From positions 62,001 through 126,000 of the forward strand of contig JAHBVU010000008.1 in assembly GCA_019637315.1 (NCBI GenBank): DNA of 64,000 nucleotides. The letters are read 5' to 3'. The position numbers were made by a program, and so were the translations under genes. Shown in pieces: positions 9,566-11,109 of the stretch (its first letter is position 1; each line of letters opens with the position of its first letter). Source of the DNA: Gemmatimonadales bacterium. GTDB taxonomy: Bacteria > Gemmatimonadota > Gemmatimonadetes > Gemmatimonadales > GWC2-71-9. A model generated the notes under the pieces. The model was not told the DNA's origin. It did not search any database and worked only from the letters and a program-made list of their open reading frames with translations.

Positions 9566-9639
9566 GGGCCCGTAGCTCAATTGGATAGAGCGTCTGACTA
9601 CGGATCAGAAGGTTGGGGGTTCGAGTCCCTCCGGGCCCG
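9566..9639 (+). tRNA. tRNA-Arg (ACG)
   Basis: 74 nt. The acceptor GGGCCCG pairs with CGGGCCC, discriminator G. The loop CTACGGA gives ACG, whose A34 is normally deaminated to inosine. The integrase reading frame on the other strand ends inside its 3' half. Confidence 0.97.
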
Positions 9640-11109
9640 TGCGGTGCAGGTGCAGTGAATTCGGGATGCAGGTGAGTCAGAACGGGGCGTAGCGCAGCCT
9701 GGTAGCGCGCTTGCTTCGGGAGCAAGAGGTCCCGGGTTCAAATCCCGGCGCCCCGACTGATCATAAAGTGAAGCCTCATCGAACGTTACACTCGGTGGGG
9801 CTTCACCTTTTTCGATCGGTTCCTGCCCGGCAGTGTCGTTCCCAGTGACAAACGAGGTCCAGCCCAGCCGGTCTTTGAGCGCATCGAGGTGCTGATCGAT
9901 GCGGAACTCCACAACATCCGAGCGATGACGTACCGTGCCCAAGTGCGAATAGACTTTCTCGACCATCTCTGTTGAGCCGTGGCCCATTTCACGGCTCACG
10001 GTGTAGACGCTGACCGGCGCCCCGCGGTCAAGCGTCTGGAGTCGCGCCGCACAGTAAGCATGACGGAACATCCGGGCGTTAATCTCTCGCGGCTTCCAGC
10101 CCGCCCGCACCGCAACCCGATCCACCATTGGGCGAATCTCACGGAGCGGCTGCTCGCGGCCGGCCACGAACGACGGAAAAAGCAGCGACCCGCCCCGCAG
10201 CATGCGCGGACCGAACAAGTAGACACGCAGAATCGCCTCGAGCTGCGGCCACAAGGGCACGACCCGCCACGACGCCTCCGTCTTGAGCCGATCGCGCCAA
10301 CGGTTGGCCCGGAAGGTGACGGTTTGACGATCGAGGCTCACGTCGTCCAACTCCAGCCCCAGCACTTCACCACGTCGGCCGCCGGTCAGCGCCAGAGTCG
10401 CGAGGAGCGGCCAGACAAAGCCTGCATCGAAGCCGGCCGCGAATGGGGTGGTCGGGGTGGGTACCGTCCGGGCACTCTCGAGCAACAACGCCACGTCGTG
10501 TGCTTCGAGCCAGGCAGCTGTGCGCTGCGGCTTAGGTGGCTTGTCCGAGAACGACGCGACGGGATTGAAGCCGGGTGGAACGTGCTCAGCTTCTTGCGCC
10601 AACCGATAGAGGTTCGACAGCGTAAACAAGTGGCGCCTAACGCTATCGGCCGAGAAGGGCTTGCCGCGCACCGAGTCAGCATTGTGCAGCAAGTGCGAGG
10701 ACCAGGCGCGCACATCCGACACCCGGATCGCATCGAGCGGTCGATCAGCCCCAAGAAATGCCACCGCGCGCTCGAGGAATTTCTGACACGCCTTGAGCCA
10801 GTCGACCGTCACGTTACCAGTCTGCTTTTTAGCGATCAGATAGTCGCGCGCGAACTCCGCCAGCGTGATGACATCGGCCTTGCCCGTAAGCGCTCGGCGT
10901 TTACGAGCTGCCTCGAGCTCTTCAAGCCGGCGGAGCGCCAGACGGAGCGCCAGATCCGGATCCGAGGTCGCAAACCGCTCGCCAAGCGGGATCAGCGGCT
11001 CACGCGTTCCTCCCACGTCGGAATAGTCGCGGAAGTCTCCATAGGCCCGTCGCGCCCCGCCCTGGCGGCGCCAATACACGCGAGACTGGCGCTTCCGCGG
11101 TGTCATCAT
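9598..11109 (-). CDS. Tyrosine recombinase (integrase)
   Basis: Site-specific integrase of the island, 503 codons in the integrated state. The catalytic domain has R245 (TGGRRGE), a likely catalytic Lys near 276, R349 in NARMFRH, H377 (MGHGS) and the nucleophile Y387 (VYSHL). The usual first His of the HxxR box is Arg346. A SAM-like N-terminal DNA-binding domain lies at about 85-175. Residues 448-465 are encoded by the att core, so everything after 465 is chromosomal tRNA-region sequence. In the excised circle the frame would instead end after 15 other residues (480 total). The catalytic part is unaffected. Confidence 0.93.
   Translation of the reverse strand: MMTPRKRQSRVYWRRQGGARRAYGDFRDYSDVGGTREPLIPLGERFATSDPDLALRLALRRLEELEAARKRRALTGKADVITLAEFARDYLIAKKQTGNVTVDWLKACQKFLERAVAFLGADRPLDAIRVSDVRAWSSHLLHNADSVRGKPFSADSVRRHLFTLSNLYRLAQEAEHVPPGFNPVASFSDKPPKPQRTAAWLEAHDVALLLESARTVPTPTTPFAAGFDAGFVWPLLATLALTGGRRGEVLGLELDDVSLDRQTVTFRANRWRDRLKTEASWRVVPLWPQLEAILRVYLFGPRMLRGGSLLFPSFVAGREQPLREIRPMVDRVAVRAGWKPREINARMFRHAYCAARLQTLDRGAPVSVYTVSREMGHGSTEMVEKVYSHLGTVRHRSDVVEFRIDQHLDALKDRLGWTSFVTGNDTAGQEPIEKGEAPPSVTFDEASLYDQSGRRDLNPGPLAPEASALPGCATPRSDSPASRIHCTCTARARRDSNPQPSDP
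9683..9756 (+). tRNA. tRNA-Pro (CGG), integration target
   Basis: 74 nt. The acceptor CGGGGCG pairs with CGCCCCG, discriminator A; the anticodon loop TTCGGGA gives CGG. The 3' part from the anticodon loop on (9715-9756) is duplicated at 29039-29080, showing that this gene is the attachment site of the island to its right. The gene remains intact because the element restores the 3' half. Confidence 0.97.
9715..9768 (+). repeat. attL core, 54 bp
   Basis: Runs from the tRNA-Pro anticodon loop to 12 bp past the tRNA end. It is identical over 54 bp to 29039-29092. The base before it (C here, A at the right copy) and the base after it (T here, C there) differ, fixing the ends. Confidence 0.95.
9768..9812 (+). 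terminator. Element-borne terminator of tRNA-Pro
   Basis: Stem 9768-9782 (GTGAAGCCTCATCGA) pairs along all 15 positions with 9792-9806, using two G-U pairs. The loop is 9 nt and T5 follows at 9808-9812. It lies just after tRNA-Pro but inside the integrase coding region on the other strand. It replaces the chromosomal terminator, which is now 19 kb away at 29093-29136. Confidence 0.8.

Follow-up and report, generated by a model that had tools for sequence, protein, structure and literature searches.

An integrase reading frame that runs through its own attachment core in a tRNA gene of a Gemmatimonadales bacterium

Attachment sites in and beside genes of described systems

In mycobacteriophage BPs, attP lies inside the repressor gene and the integrated form of the repressor is the shorter one, the lost tail being a tested degradation tag (PMC4557955). 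Archaeal suicidal tyrosine integrases of the SSV type carry the att site, commonly in a tRNA gene, within their own gene, which is split by integration (PMC8371274). In helper-embedded PICIs the int ORF can be fused to host sequence by integration, with 14 of 3177 calls needing to be split, and the crossover in attP is flanked on both sides by a doubled arm motif in one orientation (PMC10111431). The annotated int of Salmonella phage P22 (BK000583) stops 30 bp short of the attP core.

The locus described here, positions 9598-11109 of the window (the whole 64-kb stretch of DNA that was analysed), is the integrase/attP module of an integrative element of ~19.3 kb residing in a tRNA-Pro(cgg) gene. 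As in BPs, an att site lies within an ORF, and recombination there gives the encoded protein one C-terminus in the viral or circular state and another in the integrated one; unlike in BPs, where the repressor is cut and shortened, the protein concerned here is the integrase, which gains 23 residues on integration, and no tag-like ending was seen. The SSV-type integrases resemble ours in being tyrosine integrases whose gene contains the attachment site, commonly in a tRNA gene, but they differ in that their gene is split, whereas here the catalytic body (residues 1-419) stays whole on one side, at attL, and only the tail is exchanged. With the PICIs the locus shares both the fusion of int to host sequence by integration and the doubled co-oriented arm motifs, although their integrase set is different, their target is prophage late genes rather than a tRNA gene, and the fusion was handled as a matter of annotation. 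As in P22, int adjoins and points at its own attP; unlike in P22, where the core lies outside int, the frame crosses the core, and P22 is ruled out by its annotation as a precedent for such a crossing. We found no direct report in the openly accessible literature of an integrase C-terminus that changes on integration, or of a swapped tail whose function had been tested; the case for novelty, judged by absence from an open literature that excludes most subscription papers, is a weak one.

The element, its integrase and the exchanged tail

The features of the integrase gene, the tRNA target and the two element ends are as follows.

9598-11109, minus strand: tyrosine integrase ORF, 503 aa when integrated and 480 aa in the predicted circle, with no internal stop
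11113-11493, minus strand: HTH_17/excisionase-like protein just upstream of int (PF12728, E 1.4e-10; PHROG excisionase families)
9683-9757, plus strand: tRNA-Pro(cgg), the integration target, intact at attL
9566-9639, plus strand: tRNA-Arg(acg), read antisense by the final codons of the integrated ORF
9715-9768, minus strand: attL core of 54 bp, integrase codons 448-465, starting at the tRNA-Pro anticodon loop
29039-29092, minus strand: attR core, identical to the attL core
9598-9714, minus strand: attL-specific tail of 38 codons and a stop, comprising the antisense tRNA-Pro 5' half, a spacer and tRNA-Arg
28991-29038, minus strand: circle-specific tail SQPPANGHQPSTEDD and stop, coded by the far attP arm

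The integrase matches PF00589 over residues 236-390 (E 2e-8) with a score of 34.6 bits, above the curated cut-off of 27.1. Among 19 relatives, R245, K276, R349 and H377 were invariant and Y387, the putative catalytic tyrosine, nearly so, the catalytic residues being assigned from motifs; the first H of the HxxR motif is absent from this integrase family. An AlphaFold prediction gave an ordered body up to residue 419 and a pLDDT of ~35 beyond it.

Two properties of the locus mark it as a tRNA-targeting element, namely a 54-bp direct repeat of the 3' part of the tRNA gene and a tRNA-Pro that is intact at attL. The repeat, at 9715-9768 and 29039-29092, is the longest identity between the element ends; a 54-bp repeat starting at a tRNA anticodon loop is an ordinary att pair. 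A site free of insert is found in the congener G342 (L001), which has the same tRNA cluster and in which tRNA-Pro directly adjoins the counterpart of the gene at window positions 31589-32992 and so carries no insert. A related element in G342, with an integrase 72% identical, sits instead in the neighbouring tRNA-Arg(ccg), the window counterpart of which is at 34397, and its right end (L062) joins chromosome matching window positions 41338-42650. No relatives were found among viral contigs and phages. The element also contains, at 15031-19284 on the minus strand, an ORF of 1417 aa that is rich in Ala, Gln and Glu and coiled-coil-like, with neither a Pfam nor a PHROG match.

The preliminary description had proposed that the integrase frame crosses the att core, so that integration swaps the C-terminal tail, and at the level of sequence this is right and common to a small clade. 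The 54-bp identity spans precisely the codons for residues 448-465, as had been claimed, and at attL the frame continues for 38 codons past the core, antisense to tRNA-Pro and then tRNA-Arg, to a stop at 9598. Recomputing both ORFs likewise returned the proposed lengths of 503 residues for the integrated form and 480 for the circle; the latter, predicted by linking the two ends of the element at the core, ends in ...APE-SQPPANGHQPSTEDD* with its stop at 28991. The ending of the attR frame had thus been placed correctly; leftward, the frame is open from 29203, slightly further out than the 29173 that had been given.

attP beneath the extra codons and the clade of tailed integrases

Three features were located in the two arms of attP.

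9831-9852, minus strand: near attP arm, candidate doubled arm-type site TTTGTCACTGGGAACGACACTG with a 12-bp period, in integrase codons 420-426
28914-28935, minus strand: far attP arm, second such doubled site, 21 of 22 positions identical and co-oriented
9769-9813, plus strand: element-borne terminator hairpin and T-run that replaces the tRNA-Pro terminator and overlaps integrase codons ~433-447

The extra codons consist of attP DNA, the arm site, the replacement terminator and the core all lying within codons 420-465. A third copy of the doubled motif was absent from the 64-kb window at up to 6 mismatches. Between the integrase body and the tRNA gene, 15 of 17 relatives carried an 8-bp word repeated at a 12-bp period with at least 7 of 8 positions matched, and any other repeat period was present in that stretch in at most 4 of the 17. 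Both attP arms of G342 carry TTTGTTACCCGGAACGTTACCC, the two being identical to each other and different from the version in the window, so that the arm site and the integrase change together. The doubled motif is therefore probably an arm-type site bound by the integrase, as judged from its placement and covariation. The chromosomal original of the tRNA operon terminator is a perfect hairpin at 29093-29129. In the far arm a stretch of 74 nt occurs twice (28704-28777 and 28975-29048, 81% identical and 271 nt apart), and its outer copy ends in a decayed, core-like sequence that is perhaps the remnant of an older att site.

Relatives were drawn from the class; a class-wide survey with PF00589 was left unused, its mostly strong matches being taken as Xer-type recombinases. 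Among the class relatives int often faces an antisense tRNA gene lying 130-190 nt past the codon that corresponds to residue 400. The stop of most untailed relatives falls 68-98 nt past that codon, ahead of the tRNA gene, and the untailed, more distant relatives terminate at residue ~418-432. Five integrases of the same Gemmatimonadota family (those of the window, L001, L035, L006 and L036) are tailed and share one frame through the pre-core DNA into the core or the antisense of a tRNA gene (Pro or Arg), giving ...RRDLNPGPLAPE or RRDSNARPLAPE.... A sequencing error that hides a stop before residue 448, named in the preliminary description as what would overturn it, can be rejected as the source of the open reading, given that five genomes share that frame. 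In a tree built from the integrase body, with the tails and the frame-shifted stretch of L001 left out, the five formed one clade (86/89 support, recovered in 84% of bootstraps), which fits a single loss of the stop. The L001 integrase is frameshifted near residue 363, and four residues are missing from that of L036 immediately ahead of the catalytic tyrosine, so that no more than three of the five look intact; these are MAG contigs, in which assembly error may account for the lesions. A different kind of extension is seen in the integrases of L021 and L023, which have ~150 extra C-terminal residues forming two repeated helix-turn-helix-like units.

Some copies keep the attP module without the enzyme. 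On contig C37 of G012 (L064, L068, L071) three att cores stand in tandem at 38568, 45240 and 51994, ~6.7 kb apart, and the first two are preceded by the last ~60 int codons alone (arm site, terminator and core); without an integrase body, these two modules resemble satellite or int-less elements in which only the attP module is retained. At L059 (G158, contig C117, ~6644) an intact-looking tRNA-Pro end carries an attP module, again int-less, that is nearly identical to the one at the G282 integrase L058, possibly as a non-autonomous relative.

Readings of the exchanged tail

We consider it likely, from the comparison of these sequences, that the exchange of tails is a tolerated by-product of a stop codon lost beside a compact attP. 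In this integrase family, int adjoins with its 3' end an attP into which a doubled arm site, a replacement tRNA terminator and the 3' half of the tRNA as core are packed, and one clade has lost the integrase stop that relatives have at residue ~418-432, so that the ORF reads through attP. Integration then swaps a short circle-specific tail for an antisense-tRNA tail, both presumably translated, with sequences probably set by what attP and the tRNA require of the DNA. The number of sequences is small, and every sequence in the comparison is computed, none expressed.

The ratio of substitutions at third positions to the mean of first and second positions fell from 2.02 (1.84-2.23) in the integrase body to 1.05 (0.83-1.30) for codons 419-449, the pre-core tail, lower than in any 31-codon window of the body; this test speaks against conservation of the pre-core tail as protein. 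The circle tails that could be assigned, two and from one genus, are SQPPANGHQPSTEDD in the window and DPPPVSERQPPPVDP in G342 (L062), which agree at 5 of 15 residues and, as DNA, at 26 of 45 bases, an identity below that of the integrase DNA overall. Both are 15 codons long, and the stop falls inside a DNA motif, TTGAWWWTCAA, common to the window and G342, which may explain the equal length. A G012 copy has a circle tail of 22 residues, for which the assignment of the partner arm is uncertain. The expectation in the preliminary description that circle tails are conserved while attL tails vary with the host tRNA was thus borne out at best by half, the attL tails varying as expected and the two circle tails not being conserved. 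The codon-position ratio, the disorder, the unconserved circle tails and the untailed relatives together give no sign of selection on amino acids. Antisense-tRNA peptides were also considered as a protein family and rejected, phage matches being overwhelmingly to plain tRNA genes.

These data bear on the possibility that the circle and attL tails alter the stability or activity of the integrase, the enzyme sensing, much as with the BPs repressor, whether its element is integrated. At sequence level the tail really is swapped by integration, the frame is open in all five tailed members, the congeners agree in having 15-codon circle tails, and a C-terminal tag that depends on att has a precedent in BPs (PMC4557955). 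Against this, the pre-core codons are without amino-acid constraint, the tail is predicted to be disordered, the circle tails are only weakly alike and have no visible ssrA-like ending, and two of the five tailed integrases carry lesions within or close to the catalytic region, so that we regard such a switch as improbable. The more specific proposal, that a tail from the far attP arm in the circle or from the antisense tRNA in the chromosome would report the integration state by changing stability or the direction of recombination, seems quite improbable. The earlier suggestion of a tail that marks integration or adjusts activity or stability is accordingly left unsupported by the absence of codon constraint, the disorder, the untailed relatives and the lesions in two of five members. 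The tail appears to evolve as recombination-site DNA and not as protein, and is therefore probably a by-product of the lost stop rather than a signal.

It is likewise unlikely that the frame is kept purely as an open frame, the length of the tail or translation through attP mattering and the residues not, for example through an effect of ribosomes or int mRNA on the arm site or on the convergent tRNA transcript. Across the five tailed members a stop precedes the core in all ten alternative frames whereas the integrase frame is open in each, and the sole length change among them is one whole codon, which together hint that the open frame is kept; the frame is also missing from two degenerate or int-less copies, L068 and L076. 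In neutral simulations with rough branch lengths, however, all five frames stayed open in 7-22% of runs (P 0.07-0.22), too often for openness to serve as proof of selection, and the int-less copies L059 and L064 still carry the frame. It is highly improbable that the tail is never made, with int mRNA ending or being processed at the hairpin within codons ~433-447 of the ORF to leave a non-stop message, for the sole terminator-like match there is on the plus strand and serves the tRNA operon, and no minus-strand match with a T-run was found at that hairpin.

On present evidence, the extension provides a clear case of an integrase ORF that overlaps the near half of its attP, including the arm site, the tRNA terminator and the core. 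It also carries a warning that annotated C-termini of integrases beside tRNA genes may be translations of antisense tRNA. If the two tails did differ in activity, the integrase would have a built-in readout of integration, with a possible bearing on how directionality is set. Integration can rewrite the C-terminus of an integrase while leaving its catalytic body untouched.
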